Shown here in pieces: positions 33,108 through 64,000 of a stretch of DNA of 64,000 bases. The stretch is taken from NCBI GenBank assembly GCA_020161065.1, contig JAIUPH010000018.1, positions 310,001 through 374,000 on the forward strand, read 5' to 3'. The notes under the pieces are model-generated. The model saw only the letters and a list, made by a program, of their open reading frames with translations. It was not told where the DNA came from and searched no databases. Each line of letters opens with the position of its first letter. Position 1 is the first letter of the stretch. The position numbers and the translations under genes are program-made. This stretch comes from Pseudomonadota bacterium (GTDB lineage: Bacteria; Pseudomonadota; Gammaproteobacteria; Burkholderiales; Burkholderiaceae_C).

Positions 33108-33800
33108 TCAGATGGCCATGCGCTGGCGCACGCCGTCGGCCGCCATGTCCTTGCCGCGCCCGCGCATCACCACCTCGCCGCGCTCCATCACGAGGTACTG
33201 GTCGGCCAGCTCGGCGGCGAAGTCGTAGAACTGCTCCACCAGCACGATGGCCATGGTCTTGCGGTCGGCCAGCATGCGGATGACGCGGCCGATGTCCTTG
33301 ATGATGCTGGGCTGGATGCCCTCGGTCGGCTCGTCCAGCATCAAGAGCTTGGGCCCGGCGGCCAACGCGCGGGCGATGGCCAGCTGCTGCTGCTGGCCGC
33401 CGGAGAGGTCGCCGCCGCGGCGCTGCAGGAAGGGCTTGAGGATGGGGAACAGCTCGAACAGCTCGGCCGGGATCGCGGTGCCGCCGGGCTTGACGGCCAG
33501 GCCCATGCGCAGGTTGTCTTCCACCGTCAGCCGGTTGAAGATCTCGCGGCCCTGCGGCACGTAGCCGATGCCGCGGCGTACCCTCTCATAACTCGTCATG
33601 CGAGTGATGTCCTGCCCGTCCAGCGCGACGCGGCCGGTCTTCACCGGCACCACGCCCATCAGGCTTTTCAGCAGCGTGGTCTTGCCCACGCCGTTGCGGC
33701 CCAGCACCACGGTGACCTCGCCCAGCTTCGCCTCGAAGCCCAAGGCACGCAGGATGTGGCTGCCGCCGTAGTACTGGTTGAGCCCTTCGACCTTCAGCAT
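33108..33800 (-). CDS. urtE: Urea ABC transporter ATP-binding protein UrtE
   Basis: This 230-residue ABC ATPase opens MLKVEGLNQYYGGSHILR and has Walker A GRNGVGKTTLL, the signature LSGGQQQQLAIARAL, Walker B LLMLDEPTEGIQPSI and the UrtE-type ending LVMERGEVVMRGRGKDM. It is the last gene of urtBCDE and starts one base after the urtD stop. With UrtD it powers high-affinity urea uptake. A degenerate partial copy lies at 23846-24050. Confidence 0.96.
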   Translation of the reverse strand: MLKVEGLNQYYGGSHILRALGFEAKLGEVTVVLGRNGVGKTTLLKSLMGVVPVKTGRVALDGQDITRMTSYERVRRGIGYVPQGREIFNRLTVEDNLRMGLAVKPGGTAIPAELFELFPILKPFLQRRGGDLSGGQQQQLAIARALAAGPKLLMLDEPTEGIQPSIIKDIGRVIRMLADRKTMAIVLVEQFYDFAAELADQYLVMERGEVVMRGRGKDMAADGVRQRMAI

Positions 33801-33801
33801 G

Positions 33802-34682
<881 letters not shown>

Positions 34683-34686
<4 letters not shown>

Positions 34687-35792
34687 GGCTGGCCCTTGCG
34701 GCGCTTCAACAGCCCCGCCAGCCCGTCGGGCAGGAACAGCGTCACCGCGATGAACAGCGCGCCCAGGAAGAACAGCCAGAACTCGGGGAAGGCCACCGTG
34801 AACCAGCTCTTGGCGCCGTTGACGAACAAGGCGCCGACGATGGGGCCGACCAGCGTGGCGCGGCCGCCCACCGCCGCCCAGACCGCCATCTCGATGCCGG
34901 CCGCCGGGCTCATCTCGCCGGGGTTGATGATGCCCACCTGCGGCACGTAGAGCGCGCCGGCCACGCCGCACATCACGGCCGACAGCGTCCAGATGCTCAG
35001 CTTGTAAGCCACGGGGTCGTAGCCGCTGAACATCACGCGGCTCTCGGCGTCGCGGATGGCCTGCAGCACGTGGCCGTACTTGCTGTTGACGATGGCACGG
35101 CTGAGCAGGAACAGCGCGATCAGCACGGCCGCCGTCAGGCAGCACAGGAAGACGCGCATGCCCGGCGTGGCGATCGGCACGCCGAGGATGCGCTTGAAGT
35201 CGGTGAAGCCGTTGTTGCCGCCGAAGCCGGTCTCGTTGCGGAAGAACAGCAGCATCGCCGCGAAGGTCATCGCCTGCGTGATGATCGAGAAGTACACGCC
35301 CTTGATGCGCGAGCGGAAGGCGAAGAAGCCGAACACGAAGGCCAGCAGCCCCGGCACCAGCACCACCAGCAGCATCTGCGCGACGAAGGAGTCCGACAGC
35401 GCCCAGTGCCAGGGAAATGCCTTCCAGTCGAGGAACACCATGAAGTCGGGCATGGGCAGGCGGTACTGGCCGTCGCTGCCGATCTGGCGCATCAAATACA
35501 TGCCCATCGCATAACCGCCCAACGCGAAGAACAGGCCGTGGCCGAGCGACAGGATGCCGGTGTAGCCCCAGATCAGGTCCATCGCCAGCGCGCAGATGGC
35601 ATAACAGAGGATCTTGCCGGTCAGGCTGACGGCATAGTCGCTCAGGTGGAACGCGCTGCCCTCGGGCACGGCGAGGTTGAACACCGGCACGCCGACCAGC
35701 AGCACGACGCTGGCGGCCAGCACGCCGGCCCAGCCGCGCGGCCCCAGCAGCACGCCGCGCGGCGACGACAAGGCCATGCCGAGGCCGCTCAT
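34683..35792 (-). CDS. urtC: Urea ABC transporter permease UrtC
   Basis: This 369-residue LivM-type permease has about ten hydrophobic segments. They include DLIWGYTGILSLGHGLFFALGGYAMGMYL, FSIITQAMTFAAMLLFFRNETGFGGNNG and AVWAAVGGRATLVGPIVGA, all typical of UrtC. The ATG at 35792 overlaps the urtB stop, so the operon is translationally coupled. Confidence 0.96.
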
Positions 35793-37465
35793 GCCTCGGC
35801 GCTCCGGCCCTTCATCGCGAACAGCCCTTGCGGCCGCTTCTGGATGAAGACGACGATGAACACCAGCACCATGATCTTGGCCAGCACCGCGCCGGCCCAG
35901 CCTTCCAGCAGCTTGTTCAGCACGCCCAGCCCCAGCGCCGCGTAGACCGTGCCGGCAAGCTGCCCCACGCCGCCGAGCACGACGACCATGAAGGCATCGA
36001 CGATGTAGCCCTGCCCGAGGTCGGGGCCGACGTTGCCCACCTGGCTGAGCGCGCAGCCGGCGAGCCCGGCGATGCCGGCGCCCAATGCAAATGCATAGGT
36101 GTCGACGCGGGCGGTGTCGACGCCGGTGCAGGCGGCCATGCGGCGGTTCTGCGTCACGCCGCGCACGAACAGGCCCAGCCGCGTGCGGCCGATCAGCCAG
36201 GCCATGCCCAGCAGCACCAGCGCCGCGAAGGCCATGATCGCCAGCCGGTTGTACGGCAGCGTCAGGTTGGGCAGCACCTGCACGCCGCCCGACAGCCAGG
36301 CCGGGTTCTCCACCGCGACGTTCTGCGCGCCGAAGATCGAGCGCACCGTCTGCATCAGGATCAGGCTGATGCCCCAGGTGGCCAGCAGCGTCTCCAGCGG
36401 GCGGCCGTACAGCCAGCGGATCACCGTGCGCTCCAGCACCGCGCCCACCAGCGCGGCGGCGATGAAGCTCGCGGGCACCGCGGCGACAAGGTACCAGTCG
36501 AAAGCCTCGGGCCAGGCGCGCCTGAAGGCGTTCTGCACCAGGTAGGTGGCGTAGGCGCCGATCATCATCAGCTCGCCGTGCGCCATGTTGATCACGCCCA
36601 TCAGCCCGTAGGTGATGGCCAGGCCCAGCGCCACCAGCAGCAGGATGCTGCCCAGGCTGGCGCCGGTGAACAGCAGGCCCAGGCGCTCGCCCCAGGCCAG
36701 GCGCGCGGCCACCGCGTCCAGCGAGGCCTGCAGCGCGGCGCGCACCTCGGGGTCGGCCTCGGCGCCGGGCGCCAGGCGCTCGATCAGCAGCGAGCGCGTG
36801 GCCGGGCGGTCGCTGGCGGCCAGCAGCTTGGCGGCCGCCAGCCGCTTGCCGCGGTCGGCCGAGGCCACCAGCACCGCGGCGCGCCACTGGCCCAGCGCCG
36901 CCTTCAGCGCCGCATCGGGCTCGGCCGCTTCGGCCTTCTCGATCAACGCCAGCCTGGCTTCGTCGGCGCTGCCCTTCAACTCGGCGATGGCCTTGGCGCG
37001 CGCCGCGCGGTCGGGCGAGAACAGCCCCAGCGCGGCCAGCGCGCCTTCGATCTCGCCGCGCATGCGGTTGTTGTTGACCACGTCCTCGGCGTCGGCCGGC
37101 AGCGGCTGGCCGCCTTGCACCACGTAGACCTTGCCGCCGGCGAGCTTGACCTCGCCGTCGAGCAGGGCACGCAGATAAGCCGGCAGCTCGGCGTCACCCG
37201 ACGCCACCGCCTCGCCCAGCGCCTGGAGGCGCGCGTCACTGTCGCCGGCGGCGATGCGGTAGGCGAGGTCGGGCGGCAACGCCCAGGCGGGTGAAGCCAG
37301 CAACACGCCGGCGAGCGCGCCGACCAGCACGCCGACCAGCAGGCCCAGCCGCCGATGCCATCCGATGCCAACGCCGACTTTCGTCGACCCCCTCGCCACG
37401 CTGCGCACGTCTTGCAACCCCTGCTCCAGAGCTTGTTGGCCCAACGGTAGACGGCGCATCGCCAC
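35789..37465 (-). CDS. urtB: Urea ABC transporter permease UrtB
   Basis: This 558-residue protein has an N-terminal signal-anchor and a soluble helical extension of about 220 residues, with repeated Ala/Leu-rich helices. Such an extension is seen in many proteobacterial UrtB proteins. The LivH-type permease follows, with SILLLVALGLAITYGLMGVINMAHGELMMIGAYATY, ATWGISLILMQTVRSIFGAQNV and VVLGGVGQLAGT. Normally urtA lies immediately upstream; here a toxin-antitoxin pair lies between them. Confidence 0.95.
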   Translation of the reverse strand: MAMRRLPLGQQALEQGLQDVRSVARGSTKVGVGIGWHRRLGLLVGVLVGALAGVLLASPAWALPPDLAYRIAAGDSDARLQALGEAVASGDAELPAYLRALLDGEVKLAGGKVYVVQGGQPLPADAEDVVNNNRMRGEIEGALAALGLFSPDRAARAKAIAELKGSADEARLALIEKAEAAEPDAALKAALGQWRAAVLVASADRGKRLAAAKLLAASDRPATRSLLIERLAPGAEADPEVRAALQASLDAVAARLAWGERLGLLFTGASLGSILLLVALGLAITYGLMGVINMAHGELMMIGAYATYLVQNAFRRAWPEAFDWYLVAAVPASFIAAALVGAVLERTVIRWLYGRPLETLLATWGISLILMQTVRSIFGAQNVAVENPAWLSGGVQVLPNLTLPYNRLAIMAFAALVLLGMAWLIGRTRLGLFVRGVTQNRRMAACTGVDTARVDTYAFALGAGIAGLAGCALSQVGNVGPDLGQGYIVDAFMVVVLGGVGQLAGTVYAALGLGVLNKLLEGWAGAVLAKIMVLVFIVVFIQKRPQGLFAMKGRSAEA

Positions 37466-37571
37466 CCACCAATACGCAGCCTGTCGTATGGCCGCGGTGC
37501 GGTCCGCGTCGTTTGACGCCGCGCGCCGCTGGTATTACGCTTTTCGCTTTCGTCATGCCGGGAGTCCTGCC

Positions 37572-37856
37572 GTGTCCGACGCCACCACGATGACCACCAA
37601 GGGCCAGGTCACGGTGCCGCGCGCGATCCGCGAGCGGCTGGGCCTGAAGTCCGGCGACAAGATGAGCTTCACGCTGCTGAGCGACGGCACCGTGGTCATG
37701 CGCCCGAAAACAAGGCGCATGGCGGAGCTGGGCGGCATGCTGGCGCGGCCCGGCCAGCCGCGGGTCGCCGTCGAGGACATGAAGCCCTTTCGCACGTCCA
37801 CCGCCACCGCCGAGGCTGCGCCAGCGGCCAAGCCACGCAAGCGGCCCGCGCGATGA
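37572..37856 (+). CDS. SpoVT/AbrB-type antitoxin
   Basis: This 94-residue protein has an N-terminal swapped-hairpin AbrB domain (MTTKGQVTVPRAIRERLGLKSGDKM) and a basic, Ala-rich C-terminal tail ending AKPRKRPAR that should bind the toxin. GTG at 37572 is preferred because GGAG lies at 37561-37564; ATG 37590 is the alternative. Its stop overlaps the PIN gene start (ATGA). It probably represses its own promoter and neutralises the PIN RNase. Confidence 0.9.
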   Translation: MSDATTMTTKGQVTVPRAIRERLGLKSGDKMSFTLLSDGTVVMRPKTRRMAELGGMLARPGQPRVAVEDMKPFRTSTATAEAAPAAKPRKRPAR

Positions 37857-38257
37857 GCATCGCGGTCGACACCAACGTGCTCGTGCGCCTGTTGGTGCGC
37901 GACGACGAAGCCCAGTACACCGCCGCCCGGCGCCTGTTGGACCGCGCCGCGGCGGCCGACGAGCCGGTGCTGGTGCTGCTGCTCGCGCTGCTGGAAACCG
38001 AGTGGGTGCTGCGCAGTCGCTACCGGCTCGACAAGCCCAGCATCGCCGGTGCCTTTGCCGCCCTGCTGGAAAGCGCCGACGTCGAGTTCGAGCACGCGCC
38101 CACGGTGGAAGAAGCGCTGTACCGATGGTCGCAGGATGCCCGCGCCGACTTTGCCGACTGCCTGCTGGCCGCCCGCGCGGCGCAGCTCGGCTGCCGCCGC
38201 TTCTTCAGCTTCGACGCCGGCGCCGCCCGGCTGCCCGGCGTGGAGTTGCTGAGGTAA
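37853..38257 (+). CDS. PIN-domain toxin (VapC-like RNase)
   Basis: This 134-residue PIN protein has the acidic active-site pattern AVDTNVLVRLL (first Asp), LETEWVL (Glu), ADFADCLLAA (Asp) and FFSFDAGA (last Asp), so all four metal ligands look intact. Such toxins cleave specific RNAs, often initiator tRNA or rRNA loops. It pairs with the overlapping AbrB-type antitoxin, and the pair sits between urtB and urtA on the opposite strand. Confidence 0.92.
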   Translation: MSIAVDTNVLVRLLVRDDEAQYTAARRLLDRAAAADEPVLVLLLALLETEWVLRSRYRLDKPSIAGAFAALLESADVEFEHAPTVEEALYRWSQDARADFADCLLAARAAQLGCRRFFSFDAGAARLPGVELLR

Positions 38258-38264
38258 ATGCACC

Positions 38265-38295
38265 GTCCCCTCGGGGACCGGCCGCGCCAGCGGCC
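38265..38295. repeat. REP-like palindrome, copy 1
   Basis: GTCCCC-TC-GGGGAC (38265-38278) is followed by GGCCGC (38280-38285) and GCGGCC (38290-38295), giving two adjacent hairpins just past the PIN stop. A near-identical block recurs at 38356-38393, and a third hairpin lies between them. It may act as a bidirectional terminator between the converging PIN and urtA genes. Confidence 0.7.
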
Positions 38296-38321
38296 AGGGG
38301 GAGCAGCGGTGTCAGCGCCCT

Positions 38322-38351
38322 GAACCCGATCCGGCTTTGCCGGTCGGGTTC
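38322..38351. terminator. Strong 12-bp hairpin between PIN and urtA
   Basis: GAACCCGA and CCGG on the left pair with CCGG and TCGGGTTC on the right, with one bulged T and a CTTTG loop. It lies centrally between the two REP-like copies in the convergent region, so it probably terminates transcription from both sides. Confidence 0.65.
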
Positions 38352-38355
38352 AGCA

Positions 38356-38393
38356 GCCCCCTCGGGGGGCGGCCGCACGAGCGGCCGGGGGCT
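38356..38393. repeat. REP-like palindrome, copy 2
   Basis: This second copy of the block at 38265-38295 reads CCCCCTCGGGGGG, then GGCCGC (38371-38376) and GCGGCC (38381-38386). It ends just before the urtA stop. Confidence 0.65.
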
Positions 38394-38396
38394 CAC

Positions 38397-39674
38397 TCAC
38401 TTCTTTTCGGGCTCGTCCTTCTTGCCCTTGTTCTCCGCAATGAACGGACTCCAAGGCTGCGCCTTCACCGGCCCCTTGGTCTTCCACACCACGTTGAACT
38501 GGCCGTCGGCCTTGACCTCGCCGATGAACACCGGCTTGTGCAGGTGGTGGTTCTTCGGGTCCATCGTGGAGACGAAGCCGCCGGGCGCCGGCACGGTCTG
38601 GCCGGCCATCGCGGCGATGACCTTGTCGGTGTCGGTGCTCCTGGCCTTCTCGACCGCCTGCTTCCACATCATGATGCCGATGTAGGTGGCCTCCATCGGG
38701 TCGTTGGTCAGCGGCTTGTCCTTGTGGCCGGCAATGCCCTTGGCCTTGGCGTAGTCGCTCCACTTCTTGACGAACTCGGTGTTGGCCGGGCTCTTGATGC
38801 TCATGAAGTAGTTCCACGCCGCGAGATGGCCCACCAGCGGCTTGGTGTCGACGCCGCGCAGCTCTTCCTCGCCCACGCTGAAGGCCACCACCGGCACGTC
38901 GGTGGCCTTCAGGCCCTGGTTGCCCAGCTCCTTGTAGAACGGCACGTTGGAGTCGCCGTTGATCGTCGACACCACCGCGGTCTTCTTGCCCTCGGCGGCA
39001 AACTTCTTGATCTTGGCGATGATGCTCTGGTAGTCGCCATGGCCGAAGGGGGTGTACTCCTCCATGATGTCGGCGTCGGCGATGCCCTTGCTGTGCAGGA
39101 AGGCGCGCAGGATCTTGTTGGTGGTGCGCGGGTACACGTAGTCGGTGCCCAGCAGCACGAAGCGCTTGGCCGCGCCGCCGTCCTTGCTCATCAGGTACTC
39201 GACGGCCGGAATCGCCTGCTGGTTGGGCGCGGCGCCGGTGTAGAAGACGTTCTTGCTGAGTTCTTCGCCCTCGTACTGCACCGGGTAGAACAGCAGGCTG
39301 TTGAGCTCCTCGAACACCGGCAGCACGCTCTTGCGCGAGACGCTGGTCCAGCAGCCGAAGACCACGGCCACCTTGTCCTTGCTGACGAGCTGGCGCGCCT
39401 TCTCGGCGAACAGCGGCCAGTTGGACGCCGGGTCGACGACCACGGCTTCAAGCTTCTTGCCGAGCACGCCGCCCTTGGCGTTGATCTCGTCGATGGCCAT
39501 CAGCACCGTGTCCTTCAACACGGTCTCCGAGATCGCCATCGTGCCCGACAGCGAGTGCAGCACGCCGACCTTGATGGTCTCCTGCGCGTGGGCGGTCCCG
39601 AGGCCGAGCGTGGCCAGACCGGCGATGCTGGCAACGGCCAGCGTGTGAAGCGCGAAGCGGCGGCGAGACGACAT
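38397..39674 (-). CDS. urtA: Urea ABC transporter substrate-binding protein UrtA
   Basis: This 425-residue periplasmic receptor has a signal peptide ending GLGTAHAQ. It then reads TIKVGVLHSLSGTMAISET, AVVFGCWTSVSRKSVLPVFEE, LFYPVQYEGEE and YTGAAPNQQAIPAVEYL, all hallmark UrtA segments. Its C-terminus is a highly charged KGKKDEPEKK. AGGAGG-like sequence lies upstream of ATG 39674. It is on the same strand as urtBCDE but separated from them by about 930 bases holding the toxin-antitoxin pair and hairpins. Confidence 0.96.
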   Translation of the reverse strand: MSSRRRFALHTLAVASIAGLATLGLGTAHAQETIKVGVLHSLSGTMAISETVLKDTVLMAIDEINAKGGVLGKKLEAVVVDPASNWPLFAEKARQLVSKDKVAVVFGCWTSVSRKSVLPVFEELNSLLFYPVQYEGEELSKNVFYTGAAPNQQAIPAVEYLMSKDGGAAKRFVLLGTDYVYPRTTNKILRAFLHSKGIADADIMEEYTPFGHGDYQSIIAKIKKFAAEGKKTAVVSTINGDSNVPFYKELGNQGLKATDVPVVAFSVGEEELRGVDTKPLVGHLAAWNYFMSIKSPANTEFVKKWSDYAKAKGIAGHKDKPLTNDPMEATYIGIMMWKQAVEKARSTDTDKVIAAMAGQTVPAPGGFVSTMDPKNHHLHKPVFIGEVKADGQFNVVWKTKGPVKAQPWSPFIAENKGKKDEPEKK

Positions 39675-57099: not shown

Positions 57100-57423
57100 A
57101 TGACGCTCACCGTCCGCCTGGATGACGCGCTGGACTCAGCGCTGCAGCGCTATTGCCTCCAGCATGGCGTGACCAAGAGCCTGGTGGTCCAGGAGTCGCT
57201 GGCCGCCTACCTGCTGGCGGCGGCGCCCGACGCTCCCGCGGGCGCCGCCGACGACGCGCCGGCACCGAGCCTCAATCACCAGGCCTTCGCCGCCGCCGGA
57301 CTGATCGGCGCCGTGGCCGACGGCGGCGGCGCCGACAAGGCCGCCGTGCGCCGGCGCATGGCACAACGACGAGCCAGCCAGGCCAAGCGCCTGGGTGGTC
57401 CGGCCCGACGGGCCAAGCCTTGA
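57100..57423 (+). CDS. Ribbon-helix-helix (CopG-like) antitoxin
   Basis: This 107-residue protein has an N-terminal RHH fold (TLTVRLDDALDSALQRYCLQ, then GVTKSLVVQESLAAYLL). A flexible Ala/Asp/Pro linker and a basic C-terminal tail (RRRMAQRRASQAKRLG) follow and could hold the toxin. It overlaps the PIN gene by four bases. Confidence 0.88.
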   Translation: MTLTVRLDDALDSALQRYCLQHGVTKSLVVQESLAAYLLAAAPDAPAGAADDAPAPSLNHQAFAAAGLIGAVADGGGADKAAVRRRMAQRRASQAKRLGGPARRAKP

Positions 57424-57845
57424 GCAAAACGCGCACCCCGGTGCTGGTCGACACCGGCGTGCTGGTGGCGCTGTTCGACCACCAGGACGCCCACCACGCC
57501 GCGGCACAGGCCTGGCTGGCGCGCACCCACGACCGGCTGCTGACCGTGGGCCCGGTGCTGGCCGAGGCCTCGTTCTTCCTGCCGGCGCGACTGCGCAGCG
57601 GCCTGGCCGGCTTGGCGATGAGTGGCGTGCTGAAGGTCCACCAGCCCGACATCTCCGGCTACGCGCGCATTGCCCAGCTCTTCGACAAGTACGCCGACCA
57701 GGACCCCGACTGGGCCGACCTCGAACTGGTGTGGCTGGCCGAAACCGCCCAGACCGCCCGCATCGCCACCATCGACGTGGCCGACTTCAGCGTCTACCGC
57801 ATCAACGGCCGCAAGCGCTTCGAGTTGGAACTGCTGCGCGGCTGA
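57420..57845 (+). CDS. PIN-domain toxin
   Basis: This 141-residue PIN RNase has PVLVDTGVLVALFDHQDAHH (first Asp), AEASFFLPARL (Glu), DPDWADLELVWLAE (Asp) and ATIDVADFSVYR (last Asp). I placed the start at TTG 57420, which overlaps the antitoxin stop; GTG 57441 is the other possible start. It belongs to a different PIN subgroup from the toxin at 37853, with an extended LFDKYADQDPDWADLEL helix. Confidence 0.88.
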   Translation: MSKTRTPVLVDTGVLVALFDHQDAHHAAAQAWLARTHDRLLTVGPVLAEASFFLPARLRSGLAGLAMSGVLKVHQPDISGYARIAQLFDKYADQDPDWADLELVWLAETAQTARIATIDVADFSVYRINGRKRFELELLRG

Positions 57846-58067: not shown

Positions 58068-59066
58068 TCAGCCTCGCGCCAGCTCCCTCACCTTCGACAA
58101 GGCCAGCGCCGCGGCCGCGGTGCGGGTCTCGACGCCGAGCTTTTCGAACACGTGTTCCAGGTGCTTGGTGATGGTGCGCGGGCTGGTGCCCAGGATGTCG
58201 CCGATGTCGCGGTTGGTCTTGCCCTTGACCACCCAGTACAGCACCTCGGCCTCGCGCGCCGTGAGCTTGCAGGCTAACGCCACGGCCTCAACCACCGCGG
58301 CGTCGTCGCTCTCGCGCATCACGACCAGCCATTCGCCGTCGCCGGCGTCTTCCAGCGTCTCTTCGGGCATTGCGTGCAGCGCGAAGGTGATGCGGCGCGA
58401 GCCGCGGGCGACGGTCAGCGTCTGCGCGTCGGCGCCGGCGCGGCGGCGCAGCGCTTCGCGCGCCACCCAGGCGATCACCTCGGGCGGCGTCACGGTCTCG
58501 GCGCCGCCGAAATGCTCGCCCAGCATGCGGCGCGCCAGCGCCGTCTGCCAGACGCGGCGGCCGTCGCGCTCGCGCACCACCAGCGTGGCGTGGCCGAAGG
58601 CGTCCAGCGCGTTGCGCGCCTGGCGCTGGGTGCGCGCGGCCTGCAGGTGCGCGGCCACGCGGGCCAGCACCTCGCGCGGCTTGATCGGCTTGGTGACGTA
58701 GTCGATGCCGCCGGCGGCGAAGGCGTTGACGACATCCGCCGTCTCGGTGAGCCCGGTCATGAAGACGATGGGAATCGGCGCCGTGGCTTCGTCGGCCTTC
58801 AGCCGGCGCGCCGTCTCGAAGCCGTCGATGCCGGGCATCACGGCGTCCAGCAGCACGAGGTCGGGCTGGGCGCGGGCGGCGAGCTGCAGTGCGGCCTCGC
58901 CGCCGCTGGCCACCAGCACGGTGTAGCCGGCTTCGTCGAGCGCGTCGTTGAGCAGCGCGATGTTCTCGGGCACGTCGTCGACCACCAGCACCACGTCGGC
59001 GCTGGCGGGCAGCTCGCGCCGCGCGGCGGCATCGGCCGCAGGTTCAGGCAGGTCGGGGTTCATCAT
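58068..59066 (-). CDS. REC-LuxR (NarL/FixJ-like) response regulator
   Basis: This 332-residue protein has an N-terminal receiver with acidic pair Asp30-Asp31, phospho-acceptor Asp74 in LVLLDAVMPG, Thr104 and Lys126. A middle region of about 120 residues has no recognised domain. The C-terminal LuxR-type HTH reads LTAREAEVLYWVVKGKTNRD, then SPRTITKHLEHVFEKLGV. The gene overlaps the hybrid kinase gene by 23 bases and is translated after it, so the kinase is its cognate partner. It should control nitrogen or urease genes next to it, which is inference from position. Confidence 0.93.
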   Translation of the reverse strand: MMNPDLPEPAADAAARRELPASADVVLVVDDVPENIALLNDALDEAGYTVLVASGGEAALQLAARAQPDLVLLDAVMPGIDGFETARRLKADEATAPIPIVFMTGLTETADVVNAFAAGGIDYVTKPIKPREVLARVAAHLQAARTQRQARNALDAFGHATLVVRERDGRRVWQTALARRMLGEHFGGAETVTPPEVIAWVAREALRRRAGADAQTLTVARGSRRITFALHAMPEETLEDAGDGEWLVVMRESDDAAVVEAVALACKLTAREAEVLYWVVKGKTNRDIGDILGTSPRTITKHLEHVFEKLGVETRTAAAALALSKVRELARG

Positions 59067-62000
59067 GCAAGGCCTTGCTCAGCAGGTCGTTCATGGCGTC
59101 GAAACGGAACTGGCGCGCCAGCAGGCGCAGCCGGGCGACGAAGGCGGCGTGCGCGGGGTCGGCGGCCTCGATGGCGTCGATCTGCCGGCCGACGCCGCGC
59201 ACGTGGCCGAGGCTGAGCGCGCGCTGCAGCGCCTGCAACGCCGGCGCTGGCGGCAGCCGCTCACTTTGCGGGTCAGGCGGTGCCGCCGCCGGCGCCGGCG
59301 CGGCCGGCGGTTCGACGCCGATCCACTGCAGTTGCAGCCGCCGGCCCAGCCAGTCCAGCAGCTCGGCGATGCGCACCGGCTTGACGATGAAGTCTTCGGG
59401 CGGCAGGCCGACCGGGTTGTCGAGCTTGCGGTCGAAGGCGTTGGCCGAGACCACGGCGGCCGGCAGCGCGGGGTGGGTCTGCCGCAGGCGGCGCAGCGTC
59501 TCCCAGCCGTCGATGCCGGGCATCGCCAGGTCGACGAACAGCGCGTCGGGCGGCGCGGCGCCGGGCGCGGCCAGCAGCGCCAGCGCTTCCTCGCCCGAGG
59601 CCGCCGTCTGCAGCTCGAAGCCCAGCGGCTGCAGCACGTCCAGCAGCAGGCGGCGGTCGGCCTCTTCGTTGTCGACCACCAGCAGCCGCCGGCGCGGGCC
59701 CTGGTAGCCCACGCGCTGCACGCGGCCGGCCGCGGCCGCGGCCACGTCCAGCGCCGAGCCCGCCAGCTCGGGCAGGAACAGCCGCACGCTGAAGCTGCTG
59801 CCCAGGCCGGGGCGGCTGCTGACGGTCAGCTCGCCGCCCATCAGCTCGGTCAGCATGCGCGCGATGGTCAGGCCCAGGCCGGTGCTGCCGGCCGACAGCC
59901 CGCCAGCGGCGGCGCCGCGCTCGAAGGGCTCGAACACGCGCTGCAGTTCGTCGGCGCTCATGCCGGGCCCGGTGTCGCTGATCTCGAAGCGCGCCATCTC
60001 GCGCTGGTGCTGCACGCGCAGCACGACCTCGCCGCGCGCGGTGAACTTCACGGCGTTGCCCAGCAGGTTGATGAGGATCTGGCGCAGCCGCTTCTCGTCG
60101 GCGCGCACCAGCCGCGGGAGATGGCCCTCGATCGCGCAGCGAAAGCCGATGCCGCGCCCCGCGGCCTGCAGCTCGAACATCCGCGCGATCTCGGCGATGC
60201 CGTCGGCAAAGCGCATGGGCCGCACGTCCAGCGCGAGCTTGCCCGATTCGATGCGCGCGATGTCCAGCGTGCCTTCGATCAGCCCCAGCAGGTGGTCGCC
60301 GCCGTGGCGGATCACGCTCACCGCGCGGCGGCGGTGCGCCGGCATCGCCTCGTCCTCCTCCAGCAACTGGGCGTAGCCGAGGATGCTGTTGAGCGGCGTG
60401 CGCAGCTCGTGGCTGATGGTGGTGATGTAGCGGCTCTTGGCCTGGTTGGCGGCGTCGGCCATTCGCTTGGCCTTCTGCAATTGCTCGTCGGTGCGGCGGT
60501 GCGATTCGATCTCGCGCGTCAGCGCCTCGGTCTGGCGCTTGGATTCCTCCTGCGCCGCCAGCCGGCTGCTGCGCGCCAGCACCAGCCACCACGCCACGAT
60601 GCCGGCGACGATCAGCAGCAGCAGGTAGGCGGCGACGAAGGCGTCGCGCAGCGGCGCCAGCAGCGTCGCGCCGTCGCCCAGCGCGCGCGCCGTCTGGCGG
60701 TGGATCACGGCCAGCAGCAGCGCCAGCGCCGGCGCGATCAGGCCCATCAGCAGCAGGTAGTGCGCCAGCCCGGCGTCGAGCAACGGCCACAGGCGGCGCG
60801 GCAGCAACCGGCGCAAGGCCGCCGTCCACTGCGCCGACAGCCGCGCCTCGGGCTTGCAGCGGTCGTCGCAGCGCGCGTCCAGCGTGCAGCACAGGCTGCA
60901 GATCGGGCCCTGGTACGCGGGGCAATGCGCCATGTCGGGGCCTTCATAGTCGCGTTCGCAGACGCAGCAGGTCTGCAGCGCTCGATAACGTCCATCTTCG
61001 ACGGCTGGTGCCGGCGCGGGCACGATGGCGATGCGGCGCCGCGCGAGGTAGTAGCGGCCCTTCGTCGCCCAGGCGATCAGCGGGCTGGCGACGAAGGCGG
61101 TGACCAGCGCGATCAACGCCGAGAAGGCCTGCGCCAGCGGCCCGAACGCGCCCAGGTGCGCCACCACCGACAGCAGCGAGGCGATGCCCATCGCGCCCAC
61201 GCCCACCGGGTTGATGTCGTACAGGTGGGCACGCTTGAACTCGATGCCCGGCGGGCTCCAGCCCATGGGCTTGTTGACGACGAGGTCGGCAACGACGGCC
61301 ATCATCCACGCGATGGCGATGTTGGCGTACAGCCCCAACACGTGGCCCAGCGCGCTGAAGACGTTCATCTCCATCAGCACCAGCGCGATGGCCGTGTTGA
61401 ACACCATCCACACCACGCGCCCCGGGTGCGCGTGCGTCAGGCGGCTGAAGAAGTTGCTCCAGGCCAGGCTGCCGGCGTAGGCGTTGGTGACGTTGATCTT
61501 GAGCTGCGAGACGATGACGAAGGCCGCCGTCGCCGCCACCGCCAGCCCGTAGTGCGAGAACACCGTCTCGTAGGCCGCCAGGTACATCTGGTTGGGGTCC
61601 ACCGCGCGCTCGGCCGGCACCATGTGGGTCAGCGCCAGGTAGGCCAGCAGCGCGCCGCCCAGCATCTTCAGCACGCCGGGCAGCACCCAGCCGGGGCCGC
61701 CGACGATCACCGCCGCCCACCAGCGCAGCGCATGGCCCGGGCGGCGCGCCGGCATGAAGCGCAGGTAGTCCACCTGCTCGCCCATCTGCGTGATCAGCGC
61801 GATGCCCACCGTCGTGGCGGCGCCGAAGGCCTGCAGCTGGAAGCCGCCGCCGCCTTCGCCGGCGTAGCGCACCAGGCCCTGCAGCAACGCGGGGTCGGAC
61901 TTGAGCACGAAGACGTAGGGCAGCACCAGCATCAGCAGCCACAGCGGCTGCGTCCACACCTGCAGCCGGCTTATCGCGGTGACGCCGTGCGCCACCAGCG

Positions 62001-62514
62001 GAATCACCACCAGCGCGCACAGCAGGTAGCCCCAGGCCGGCGGGATGTCGAAGGCCAGTTCCAGCGCGTAGGCCATCACGGCCGCTTCCAGCGCGAAGAA
62101 GATGAAGGTGAAGCTGGCGTAGATCAGGCTGGTGACGGTGCTGCCGATGTAGCCGAAGCCGGCGCCGCGGGTCAGCAGGTCCATGTCGACGCCGTGGCGC
62201 GCGGCGTAGACGCTGATCGGCCAGCCGGCCAGGAAGATCACCGCGCCGGTGACGGCGATGGCCAGCGCCGCGTTGACGAAGCCGTACTGCACCAGCAGCG
62301 TGGCGCCCACGGCCTCCAGGATCAGGAACGACGCGGCGCCGAACGCGGTGCTGGCCACGCGCCATTCGCTCCAGCGCCGAAAGCCGTGCGGCGTGAAGCG
62401 CAGCGCGTAGTCTTCCATCGTCTCGCGCGCCACCCAGCGGTTGTAGTCGCGCCGCGTCTTGACGACGCGTTGCGGGGCGTTGGGGGCGGTGGCGGGGCTT
62501 GCCGAAGCGTGCAT
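59044..62514 (-). CDS. NCS1-permease-fused hybrid sensor histidine kinase
   Basis: This 1156-residue membrane protein has several domains. Residues about 25-485 form an NCS1 (cytosine/purine/uracil/allantoin-type) permease domain with about 12 helices. A Cys-rich segment follows at 516-553 (nine Cys, with CCVC and CSLCC). Two more hydrophobic helices lie at about 580-645, then a coiled coil at about 650-695. HisKA follows with His702 in TTISHELRTPLNS, and HATPase_c at about 805-915 with N820 and DTGPG (847-851). A receiver domain has phospho-Asp995 and Lys1045, and a helical tail ends the protein. ATG 62514 begins the cytoplasmic leader. It is divergent from ureA with 134 bases between. The substrate sensed is probably urea-related or a nucleobase, by context. 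Confidence 0.92.
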   Translation of the reverse strand: MHASASPATAPNAPQRVVKTRRDYNRWVARETMEDYALRFTPHGFRRWSEWRVASTAFGAASFLILEAVGATLLVQYGFVNAALAIAVTGAVIFLAGWPISVYAARHGVDMDLLTRGAGFGYIGSTVTSLIYASFTFIFFALEAAVMAYALELAFDIPPAWGYLLCALVVIPLVAHGVTAISRLQVWTQPLWLLMLVLPYVFVLKSDPALLQGLVRYAGEGGGGFQLQAFGAATTVGIALITQMGEQVDYLRFMPARRPGHALRWWAAVIVGGPGWVLPGVLKMLGGALLAYLALTHMVPAERAVDPNQMYLAAYETVFSHYGLAVAATAAFVIVSQLKINVTNAYAGSLAWSNFFSRLTHAHPGRVVWMVFNTAIALVLMEMNVFSALGHVLGLYANIAIAWMMAVVADLVVNKPMGWSPPGIEFKRAHLYDINPVGVGAMGIASLLSVVAHLGAFGPLAQAFSALIALVTAFVASPLIAWATKGRYYLARRRIAIVPAPAPAVEDGRYRALQTCCVCERDYEGPDMAHCPAYQGPICSLCCTLDARCDDRCKPEARLSAQWTAALRRLLPRRLWPLLDAGLAHYLLLMGLIAPALALLLAVIHRQTARALGDGATLLAPLRDAFVAAYLLLLIVAGIVAWWLVLARSSRLAAQEESKRQTEALTREIESHRRTDEQLQKAKRMADAANQAKSRYITTISHELRTPLNSILGYAQLLEEDEAMPAHRRRAVSVIRHGGDHLLGLIEGTLDIARIESGKLALDVRPMRFADGIAEIARMFELQAAGRGIGFRCAIEGHLPRLVRADEKRLRQILINLLGNAVKFTARGEVVLRVQHQREMARFEISDTGPGMSADELQRVFEPFERGAAAGGLSAGSTGLGLTIARMLTELMGGELTVSSRPGLGSSFSVRLFLPELAGSALDVAAAAAGRVQRVGYQGPRRRLLVVDNEEADRRLLLDVLQPLGFELQTAASGEEALALLAAPGAAPPDALFVDLAMPGIDGWETLRRLRQTHPALPAAVVSANAFDRKLDNPVGLPPEDFIVKPVRIAELLDWLGRRLQLQWIGVEPPAAPAPAAAPPDPQSERLPPAPALQALQRALSLGHVRGVGRQIDAIEAADPAHAAFVARLRLLARQFRFDAMNDLLSKALHDEPRPA

Positions 62515-62582
62515 GGCAAGGCCGCACTCAAGATCCGCGCCACCGCCGCTAACATGGCCCCGGACGTGCTGAGGACGAGCGC

Positions 62583-62636
62583 ATGGAACTGACCCCGCGT
62601 GTTCGGCCGGCATTTGCGGCCGCACGCGCTGACTGA
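62583..62636 (+). other. 17-codon leader frame repeating the ureA start
   Basis: ATGGAACTGACCCCGCGTG (62583-62601) is a near-copy (one change) of the first 19 bases of ureA at 62649-62667. The frame continues for 17 codons to TGA at 62634-62636, 12 bases before ureA. It is either a small duplication scar or a leader peptide. Confidence 0.45.
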
Positions 62637-62648
62637 GAGCGAAGCGAC

Positions 62649-62951
62649 ATGGAATTGACCCCGCGTGAGAAGGACAAGCTGCTGATCTTCACCGCCGCCT
62701 TGCTGGCCGAGCGGCGCAAGGCCCGCGGCCTGAAGCTCAACGTGCCGGAGGCGGTGGCGCTGATCAGCGCGGCCATCATGGAAGGCGCGCGCGACGGCAA
62801 GACGGTGGCGCAGTTGATGAGCGAAGGCAAGCAGGTGCTGACGCGCGCCGAGGTGATGGACGGCGTGCCCGAGATGGTCAGCGAGATCCAGGTGGAAGCC
62901 ACCTTCCCCGACGGCACCAAGTTGGTGACCGTGCACCAACCGATTGCATGA
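62649..62951 (+). CDS. ureA: Urease gamma subunit
   Basis: This 100-residue protein matches UreA over its full length: [66 protein letters not shown] and [14 protein letters not shown]. It is part of the UreABC trimer of heterotrimers that hydrolyses urea in the cytoplasm. It overlaps ureB by four bases (ATGA). Confidence 0.98.
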
Positions 62952-63277
62952 GCGGCGGAGAAAGGCACCAGATGATTCCCGGTGAACTGTTGCCCGAGGC
63001 CGGCGAGTTGGCGTTGAACCCCGGCCGCGCGACGTTGACGATGGTGGTGGAGAACAGCGGCGACCGGCCGATCCAGGTCGGCAGCCACTACCACTTTGCC
63101 GAGACCAACCCGGCGCTGCGCTTCGACCGCCAGGCCGCGCGCGGCATGCGGCTGAACATCGCCAGCGGCACCGCGGTGCGCTTCGAGCCCGGCCAGCAGC
63201 GCACCGTCGAACTGGTGGCTTATGCCGGCGAGCGCCAGGTCTGGGGCTTCCGCGGCGACGTGCAGGGAGCGCTGTGA
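62948..63277 (+). CDS. ureB: Urease beta subunit
   Basis: This 109-residue protein has [43 protein letters not shown] and [18 protein letters not shown], all UreB hallmarks. The start at 62948 overlaps ureA; ATG 62972 (MIPGELL) gives the usual N-terminus and is equally plausible. It ends overlapping the ureC start. Confidence 0.97.
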
Positions 63278-64000
63278 TGGCGAAGATCGGACGCCGCGCC
63301 TATGCCGAGATGTTCGGCCCCACCGTCGGCGACCGGCTGCGGCTGGCCGACACCGGGCTCGTCATCGAGGTCGAGCGCGACCACACGCTGGCCGCCGGCG
63401 GCCATGGAGAAGAAGTCAAGTTCGGCGGCGGCAAGACCATCCGCGACGGCATGGGCCAGGGCCAGCGCGTCAACGGCCCCGACCACGACCTGGCCTGCGA
63501 CTGCGTGATCACCAACGCGCTGATCGTCGACCATTGGGGCATCGTCAAGGCCGACATCGGCATCAAGGGCAGCCGCATCGCGGCCATCGGCAAGGCCGGC
63601 AACCCCGACGTGCAGCCGGGCGTGGACATCGTGATCGGCCCCGGCACCGAGATCATCGCTGGCGAAGGGTTGATCGTCACCGCCGGCGGCATCGACAGCC
63701 ACATCCACTTCATCTGCCCGCAGCAGATCGACGAGGCGCTGTACGCAGGCATAACCACCATGCTCGGCGGCGGCACCGGCCCGGCTACCGGCACCTTCGC
63801 CACCACCTGCACGCCGGGGCCGGAGAACCTGCACCGCATGCTGCAGGCGGCCGATTCCTTTGCGATGAACCTCGGCTTCCTGGGCAAGGGCAACGCCAGC
63901 CGGCCCGAGGCCTTGAGCCAGCAGATCGCCGCCGGCGCCATCGGCCTCAAGCTGCACGAGGACTGGGGCACGACGCCGAGCGCGATCGACAACTGCCTGG
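63277..64000 (+). CDS. ureC: Urease alpha subunit (3' end outside window)
   Basis: The first 241 residues of the catalytic subunit are present. Nickel ligands His142 and His144 lie in [14 protein letters not shown], and the Lys that is carbamylated is Lys225 in [28 protein letters not shown] opens the protein, as in all UreC. The remaining active-site region lies beyond the right edge. Confidence 0.98.

Follow-up and report, generated by a model that had tools for sequence, protein, structure and literature searches.

CbrA, CrbS, and RpuS are SLC5-STAC histidine kinases, in which a transporter domain is fused to a histidine kinase (CbrA, PMC13022988; RpuS, PMC9100948). CrbS is a hybrid kinase that works with a LuxR-family regulator, which acts through an imperfect palindrome on utilization genes (PMC5715377). 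A kinase of comparable plan and its LuxR-type response regulator are encoded in 64,000 nucleotides of a Burkholderiales genome (assembly GCA_020161065.1, contig JAIUPH010000018.1, positions 310,001 to 374,000; this whole stretch is hereafter the window), where they lie divergent from the urease genes ureABC. In contrast to CbrA, CrbS, and RpuS, this kinase has an NCS1-like and not an SLC5 input domain, is modeled with an eight-cysteine (8-Cys) finger and two long helices in the place of STAC, and has urea or an amide as its predicted signal and TACGT-N6-ACGTA as its palindrome. The kinase–regulator system is real, widespread, and coherent, and we read it, with a probability of about 0.7, as a two-component system of the transceptor type that responds to urea and short-chain amides and controls the genes for their uptake and hydrolysis, the ligand being a prediction.

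Ks-Amt5, the Amt-type ammonium sensor kinase of Kuenenia, is likewise a HisKA-type kinase that senses through a permease domain; in it, the binding site is altered and transport has been lost (PMC5764959). It belongs to an unrelated permease family and, as far as the available text describes it, is without PAS, HAMP, or STAC linkers (PMC5764959), whereas the NCS1 sensors have a conserved 8-Cys finger, a linked uptake operon, and a shared operator-like site. By analogy, the present system would work like CbrA, CrbS, and Ks-Amt5 with an NCS1 input, differing in permease fold, linker, and context. The fold of the sensor is that of Mhp1 and CodB, and two of its stand-alone relatives, P0004 and a Klebsiella permease, pass the Pfam profile PF02133; unlike Mhp1 and CodB, the fused forms fall below that profile, carry the finger C-terminally, and have urea and amide genes as neighbors. 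Neither an NCS1-fused kinase nor an NCS1 urea carrier was found among the open-licence PMC papers that the searches listed.

The uptake and formamidase genes around the NCS1 sensor form the same type of gene set as the Methylophilus clusters fmdCABDEF and urtABCDE-fmdA, which are reported to be induced by formamide and urea (review PMC10781810). The available part of that review names no histidine kinase or two-component system for these clusters, and the NCS1 kinase–regulator pair is a candidate regulator of fmd/urt clusters in the species that carry it. In Pseudomonas veronii, formamide uptake was suggested for an amiE-fmdA-fmdB-urtABCDE cluster in a 2026 paper, in whose available text the terms "histidine kinase" and "two-component" are absent (PMC13209695). 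In Dechloromonas aromatica, a 1131-residue histidine kinase and a 308-residue CheY-like protein are placed beside urtA in a nitrogen-fixation table (PMC2907700, Table 4), and the listing, in the part available, mentions no transporter domain or role for the kinase; our guess, by size and place, is that this pair, the only candidate for an earlier sighting that we met, belongs to the NCS1-kinase family.

Architecture and Fold of the Sensor Kinase

Along the kinase, an NCS1-type permease fold is followed by the 8-Cys finger and two further helices and then by HisKA, HATPase, and a receiver (Table 1). A first-pass annotation of this DNA, made from the letters alone, had proposed a single 1156-residue protein with an NCS1 permease domain, a Cys-rich segment, HisKA/HATPase, and a receiver, whose gene overlaps that of a REC-LuxR regulator and lies opposite ureABC across 134 bases, with urtABCDE about 20 kb away, and each of these statements was borne out. 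The domains are recovered by Pfam and Foldseek, and the two open reading frames (ORFs) overlap by 23 bases. The ureA–kinase gap measures 134 bases (62514 to 62649), with ureA and ureB identified by NCBIfam and UreC following, and urtABCDE (33108-39674, minus strand) is separated from the regulator gene by ~18 kb and from the kinase gene by ~19 kb. The start of the kinase is not fixed because its frame stays open up to a GTG at 62625, the 1156-residue start being the choice of that annotation. The protein has the features of a hybrid HisKA kinase, namely, HisKA with its His, HATPase_c, and a receiver with its Asp, and its partner those of a LuxR-type response regulator, namely, REC and a GerE helix-turn-helix (Pfam). 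Among 40 diverse members scanned by Pfam, HATPase_c was found in 39, HisKA in 37, and Response_reg in 34.

The prediction of the sensor structure, proposed as a check by the same annotation, yielded an AlphaFold2 model of 671 residues (15-685) built with 61 sequences, with a mean predicted local distance difference test (pLDDT) score of 81. Its top Foldseek match in the PDB is Mhp1 (2jln, E 1e-8), followed by CodB (7qoa, E 3e-8; template modeling score of 0.77 by target length). Five NCS1 chains outrank all SLC5-type structures in the 50 Foldseek rows listed, by which ranking the domain is not of the SLC5 (solute/sodium symporter) type, and they also stand ahead of APC and Nramp. PF02133 has no match in the window's kinase at E 1, and at 1e-4 it has none in the 40 fused members scanned; the NCS1 identity is thus correct at the level of the fold and not of the curated profile, and the missing match helps to explain why records name such proteins ATP-binding protein or ArcB. 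Sequence searches of the PDB found no NCS1 structure; their lowest E-values (0.0014 and 0.004) come from the Cys-bearing tail of P0004, which hit tetraheme cytochromes c, and other weak rows were a synthetase on the stand-alone permease L224 (0.0099) and a RING-type zinc finger (9.1).

The transporter–kinase linker in the model is made up of the finger and the two long helices. Judged from the sequence, the latter may be read as a second membrane hairpin that leads into the signaling helix. Foldseek returned no match to the finger better than E 0.7, with RING, PHD, and LIM fingers among the first rows, which is only a hint of a cross-brace zinc fold. The 122 fused sensors aligned here and below include L237, with L099, L275, and low-identity hits left out. 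In L237 (6851-10519), the same sensor module and finger are joined to PAS-GGDEF-EAL with no kinase, forming a putative urea/amide-responsive cyclic di-GMP protein, so the sensor module would be able to drive other outputs.

Distribution and Gene Neighborhoods

In the window's order, the sensor domain is present in 65 of 399 genomes, with 68 copies at an identity of at least 44%, and 66 of these copies lie in open frames of at least 913 residues; the kinase is therefore not a product of chance. Four of the 69 matched genomes were excluded from this count because their matches are not the fused sensor (G223, G156, and G027, with 450-458 residues at 25-26% identity, and G347, with a 32-residue fragment), as were weak second hits in G283 and G061. 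Three genomes (G204, G264, and G350) have two copies each, one near urease and the other beside urt-type genes. Beyond the order, the domain occurs in Alpha- and Gammaproteobacteria, with matches in 18 of 369 genomes of a class sample and 55 of 398 of a phylum sample, samples that partly overlap the order sample and whose rows include a few stand-alone proteins or fragments. From these, 60 stretches were fetched, 55 of them with a fused sensor by BLAST, G972 (a fragment) and G1017 not being among them; the other five comprise three with stand-alone proteins (L222, L224, and L276), one locus cut by the contig end (L223), and one with none (L277). A scan of GTDB contigs supplied the best 80 of at least 574 stretches that encode a relative, fused or not, a number in which a locus may count twice and a choice biased to close relatives; all 80 come from records named or labeled as betaproteobacterial in type or from unplaced bacterial ones.

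The system is also borne on plasmids. Of 72,556 plasmid records, 516 gave a match at E 1e-100, and in 56 of them the match spans 80% or more of the query. Klebsiella accounts for 340 of the 516, and Sinorhizobium, Azospirillum, and Methylobacterium are found among the others. In the one record viewed of these 340, the IncFIB plasmid L283, fmdA-urtEDCBA is divergent from the kinase with the operator between them, and the kinase is annotated as an ATP-binding protein.

The commonest neighbors of the kinase are the urea/amide ATP-binding cassette (ABC) transporter genes urtABCDE and the formamidase gene fmdA, with urease next. Unbiased ORF clustering of the 68 order loci, with cluster representatives named by Pfam and UreB and UreC by sequence, recovered the regulator in 58 loci, ABC ATPases in 41, urtA in 36, urtB type in 33, FmdA in 32, urtC type and UreC in 30 each, FmdB in 20, and CN_hydrolase in 13, in addition to other urease genes. 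Counted per locus within the fetched stretch, urtA/B/C-type genes are present in 42 of 68, fmdA in 32, ureA/B/C in 30, and at least one of the three in 56; the corresponding numbers for the 55 loci from other orders or classes are 43, 33, 8, and 46, where the urt labels, given by sequence similarity, may include some other branched-chain-type transporters. The commonest layout is urtABCDE-fmdA(B), often with an amidase gene, divergent from the kinase–regulator pair. The ureA-divergent layout of the window is found in 53 of 80 GTDB loci, 6 of 67 loci of the order set, and 0 of 60 others. At least 30 of the 68 copies have UreC at 25 kb or less, all distances to urease being upper bounds. The window's own genome holds one UreC, one copy of the sensor domain, and one other PF02133 permease.

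The search for this architecture across genomes with scoring of neighbors, also called for at first pass, revealed urease in 62 of 65 carrier genomes as against 151 of 399 overall (p 8e-27, kinship ignored) and, by genus, in 42 of 44 carriers as against 78 of 159 (p 2e-14). The tie to urea use that had been proposed is upheld by this enrichment, whereas its focus on urease shifts to the urt/fmd regulon because urease is a frequent neighbor mainly in the window's own order and because the only above-chance operator in the window stands at urtA and not at ureA.

Seven small clusters of the class and phylum loci were scanned as well, yielding, besides four that recur together in five loci (see the last alternative below), an AAA protein in 7 of the 60 loci, a porin in 5 loci, and one cluster without a match. 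In each of its seven loci (L261:18236-19270 and six others), the AAA protein is encoded near the kinase as well as urt and fmdA genes. In addition, the kinase at L043:5124-9208, 73% identical to that of the window, adjoins genes with nifHDK-like starts, as judged by eye, which recalls the Dechloromonas cluster.

A Shared Operator-Like Palindrome

Expectation maximization on 49 non-redundant urtA–kinase gaps, the window excluded, found the motif aTACGTcaattgACGTAt of width 18 with a log-likelihood ratio of 495, against 34-41 in three shuffles of 2-base blocks. TACGT-N6-ACGTA with two mismatches or fewer is present in 46 of these 49 gaps. The matrix trained on them gives its top score in the whole 64 kb to the site ATACGACAGATGGCGTAG ahead of urtA (Table 1), and among 20 random sequences matched to it in length and dinucleotide composition, the mean maximum was 7.9 bits and none reached 16.0.

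Among 70 loci outside the urtA-divergent training class, some of which are close kin of training loci (e.g., L279), the top hit reaches at least 16 bits in 28, and 23 of these hits fall within promoter zones covering 7.6% of the sequence, while 40 column-permuted matrices gave a mean of 1.4 hits and 0.2 in the zone. The five hits elsewhere are in L040, L047, L080, L084, and L086, that of L047 being inside an over-long urtA ORF. The predicted operator stands upstream of urtA away from the kinase (L270, L272, and L273), upstream of the kinase where the divergent neighbor is not urtA (L057, L060, and L068), in the gap that separates the kinase from a stand-alone permease (L221), and upstream of fmdA (L235, L243, L252, L253, and L274, which belong to the training class for their urtA gap). 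In three plasmid records with a fused kinase (L281, L283, and L284), it scores 18 to 25 bits, and in all 10 loci with only a stand-alone permease (L222, L282, and L286-L293), the score stays below 12 bits. The recognition helix of the regulator is conserved in 83 of 107 extracted regulators. Because of this placement, its presence with the kinase, its weakness beside lone permeases, and the conserved recognition helix, it is strongly suggested that the regulator binds the TACGT-N6-ACGTA palindrome.

The ureA–kinase gaps are of another make. A weaker related form, ATACGCC-N4-GGCGTAT, is found in 18 of 60 such gaps, the last two of the 18 being weak, and not in that of the window. A sigma-54-like promoter is directed toward the kinase in 32 of the 60 and toward ureA in 4 (control by single-base shuffles), and none was seen in either direction in the 49 urtA gaps. 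The palindrome gTGccacg..cgtggCAc, which expectation maximization returned from the ureA–kinase gaps, was rejected as a regulator site, as it is this sigma-54-like promoter toward the kinase. Where that promoter is present (gaps of L033-L038 and L103-L182), it suggests that expression of the sensor is under nitrogen-limitation control.

Stand-Alone Relatives and the Helix 1 Signature

Permeases of the same fold without a kinase were fetched from 12 loci, picked from match lists and not a random sample, and 10 of them are near urease, formamidase, or amidase genes. P0004 (G675), 46% identical to the sensor domain, is within ureDABCEFG-permease-NicO. P0003 (G659), which has the 8-Cys finger, heads a permease-fmdA-amidase run divergent from a kinase–regulator pair, with no urt gene labeled in the stretch. 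In K. pneumoniae, the permease directly follows ureG (L282:9947-11554, labeled cytosine permease); the same record has an IS110-family transposase between ureB and ureE and no ureC feature, its gene table being incomplete. Similarly, three Acinetobacter plasmids have the permease before ureEFG and ureDABC, the Moraxella osloensis permease is divergent from fmdA, and that of Tsukamurella is followed by two small genes and one opposed gene before an fmdA in its own direction. The permease of Arthrobacter U41 precedes an aliphatic amidase, and that of Methylovirgula adjoins a kinase–regulator pair, a formamidase, and an amidase. Annotated stand-alone relatives are called cytosine permease, allantoin permease, or hypothetical, and the urea/amide reading would suggest that some permeases beside urease have been mistakenly named for cytosine or allantoin. 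Of eight scanned against PF02133 (cut-off 23.5 bits), P0004 (31.8) and the Klebsiella permease (37.7) pass, and the other six gave no row at E 0.01. A more distant stand-alone NCS1 permease (L224:8948-10441; 28% identity; PF02133 36.4 bits) adjoins CN_hydrolase-like and urtA-like ORFs, so named from BLAST labels only.

In a tree, 61 fused sensors stand apart from 10 stand-alone permeases with a support of 98, one of three outgroup rows falling inside the fused sensors; the root is not fixed because of this row and the very long outgroup branches, and the topology is consistent with a single origin of the fusion. The two groups are separated by two neighboring residues: all 10 stand-alone permeases have Asp at position 66, as against 0 of 122 sensors (Leu 113, Met 6, Tyr 2, and Ile 1), and position 67 shows the exchange given in Table 1. 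Both align to helix 1 of CodB, and helix 1 in the NCS1 fold helps to form the substrate and cation sites. We hold it at even odds that an unrecognized NCS1 sub-family carries urea and short-chain amides, its stand-alone members serving urease, formamidase, or amidase genes from Acinetobacter and Klebsiella to actinobacteria, and that a single fusion, marked by the change from Asp66 to Glu67 and with the 8-Cys finger as the coupling piece, made of it a standing regulator of urea and amide uptake in many Pseudomonadota.

The window's kinase retains 129 of the 161 positions that are invariant in the 10 stand-alone permeases, including the helix-8 motif KINVTNAY, and the SLC5 domain of CbrA transports histidine (PMC13022988). 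Both points favor a CbrA-like protein with transport activity beside its sensor role, with urea or amide uptake through the NCS1 domain as part of the signal. This account is possible, although we regard it as doubtful, since every one of the 122 fused sensors has lost Asp66 and gained Glu67, as expected if coupling were altered, urt-type genes are also at hand in 42 of 68 and 43 of 55 stretches, and Ks-Amt5 gave up transport on turning sensor (PMC5764959).

Proposed Mechanism and Alternatives

In the mechanism that we favor, the NCS1-fold domain would bind urea or a small amide (for example, formamide or acetamide) on the outside, and the resulting change in the helical bundle would be relayed to HisKA first by the 8-Cys finger, in the cytosol, and then by the helix hairpin and the signaling helix. 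Phosphate would then pass from H702 to D74 of the LuxR regulator, directly or through the receiver at D995. Because a relay from H702 through D995 to D74 needs a transfer domain and Hpt was found by Pfam in 1 of 40 members, direct transfer with the receiver as a modulator is equally likely. The regulator would bind TACGT-N6-ACGTA and turn on urtABCDE, probably as an activator and not a repressor. Where a species possesses them, it would also turn on fmdA, amidase, a stand-alone permease, and the operon of the regulator itself; urease would be switched on too where a site precedes its genes.

Several observations weigh against this. Three of the 65 carrier genomes have no urease, 12 of 68 and 9 of 55 loci have no urt, ure, or fmdA neighbor in the fetched stretch (some being on short contigs), and FmdA is absent from the window's own genome, which was searched. 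Two of the 12 stand-alone loci (Streptomyces angustmyceticus and Arthrobacter NicSoilB11) have no telling neighbor, and 3 of the 10 supporting ones are the Acinetobacter plasmids, which are near-identical. The palindrome with two mismatches or fewer is present in just 3 of the 60 ureA–kinase gaps, and among the 70 loci outside training, 42 lack a 16-bit hit. The window's own ureA–kinase gap contains no operator (none within two mismatches and none among the window's top 12), scores -0.6 bits under the ureA-group matrix, and is without a sigma-54 site; as it has neither, control of ureABC here is unsupported by any site, and urease was rejected as a direct target in the window. Finally, urea, formamide, and acetamide are indistinguishable as the ligand.

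The sensing of nitrogen status or external ammonium, with the permease fold as a leftover, is unlikely. It would agree with the sigma-54-like promoters of the ureA–kinase gaps, which suggest nitrogen control, and with the precedent of an Amt-type ammonium sensor kinase; such control of expression fits substrate sensing too, and a leftover domain would hardly be the most conserved part of the protein, with all invariant columns but 18 of a 40-row full-length alignment within residues 22-492 and with kin that adjoin urea and amide enzymes.

Improbable, too, is that the 8-Cys finger is the true sensor, of redox state, zinc, or nickel, and the permease domain a mere anchor. Its eight Cys are invariant throughout the fused sensors, urease requires nickel, and the Cys tail of P0004 weakly matches tetraheme cytochromes c, a match taken as compositional. 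In contrast, two permeases that have no kinase also end in the finger, and eight others have only a reduced form of it or none. Six of these eight still adjoin urease, formamidase, or amidase genes. The permease part also holds more of the invariant columns.

The nucleobase, hydantoin, or allantoin-like ligand signaling to urease that the first-pass annotation offered beside urea is very improbable and was rejected as the leading explanation, although it has in its favor the NCS1 fold, whose solved members are described as hydantoin-bound (Mhp1) and as a cytosine transporter (CodB), and the purine-type gene of five loci described next, since the stand-alone kin sit beside urease, formamidase, or amidase and since, among the named recurrent neighbor clusters (one matchless and one 93-residue cluster being unnamed), the only purine/pyrimidine-type gene is a PF01048 phosphorylase-superfamily gene near the kinase in five loci of one genus (g495), where it recurs with FMO-like, trypsin-like, and IF-2B genes and, being beside the IF-2B gene, presumably fits methionine salvage. 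Of the ligands put forward at first pass, urea is thus the one that the evidence favors.

If the urea/amide reading is true, it names a sensor of urea and formamide use in the more than 100 species seen here, among them soil, water, and plasmid-borne systems in whose records it is often labeled only as an ATP-binding protein, and it supplies an operator and a regulon that can be tested. The paired stand-alone permeases and sensors form a natural set of one fold, which makes the conversion of a carrier to a receptor directly testable.

Features of the Window

Table 1. Positions of the kinase–regulator pair, its domains, the urea genes, and the operator-like sites in the window.
Feature	Position	Strand	Basis or remark
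NCS1-type hybrid sensor histidine kinase, 1156 residues	59044..62514	-	ORF list, Pfam
NCS1-fold sensor domain, residues 19-492	61039..62460	-	most conserved part of the protein
Glu67 codon, helix 1	62314..62316	-	Glu in 122/122 fused sensors; Phe/Gln in 10/10 stand-alone permeases
8-Cys finger, residues 514-556	60847..60975	-	eight Cys (516-553) invariant in 122/122 aligned fused sensors
Two long helices, residues ~575-645, between finger and signaling helix	60580..60792	-	model
HisKA, residues 692-758, phospho-acceptor H702	60241..60441	-	Pfam; H702 by motif
HATPase_c, residues 806-914	59773..60099	-	Pfam
Kinase receiver (Response_reg), residues 945-1054, D995	59353..59682	-	Pfam; D995 by motif
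REC-LuxR response regulator, D74	58068..59066	-	Pfam Response_reg and GerE; D74 by motif
ureA, urease gamma, divergent from kinase	62649..62951	+	NCBIfam above cut-off
ureB, urease beta	62948..63277	+	NCBIfam above cut-off
ureC, extends past the window end	63274..64000	+	
urtA, urea/amide-binding protein	38397..39674	-	tblastn and Peripla_BP_5
urtB (approximate start)	35789..36676	-	NCBIfam equivalog above cut-off
urtC (approximate start)	34683..35651	-	NCBIfam equivalog above cut-off
urtD (approximate start)	33802..34539	-	NCBIfam equivalog above cut-off
urtE	33108..33800	-	NCBIfam equivalog above cut-off
Predicted regulator operator, 16.0 bits	39746..39763		~80 bp upstream of urtA ATG; 19 kb from kinase
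Second operator-like site, 9.7 bits	37472..37489		between urtA and urtB

The urt operon is split in the window, as a plus-strand MazE/PrlF-like antitoxin ORF and then a PIN-domain (VapC-like) ORF (37365-38257) are inserted between urtA and urtB, and the second operator-like site shares this stretch with them. Immediately past the 3' end of the regulator gene, the other strand carries another PIN-domain (VapC-like) ORF (57153-57845), preceded by a ribbon-helix-helix-like stretch, as judged by eye.

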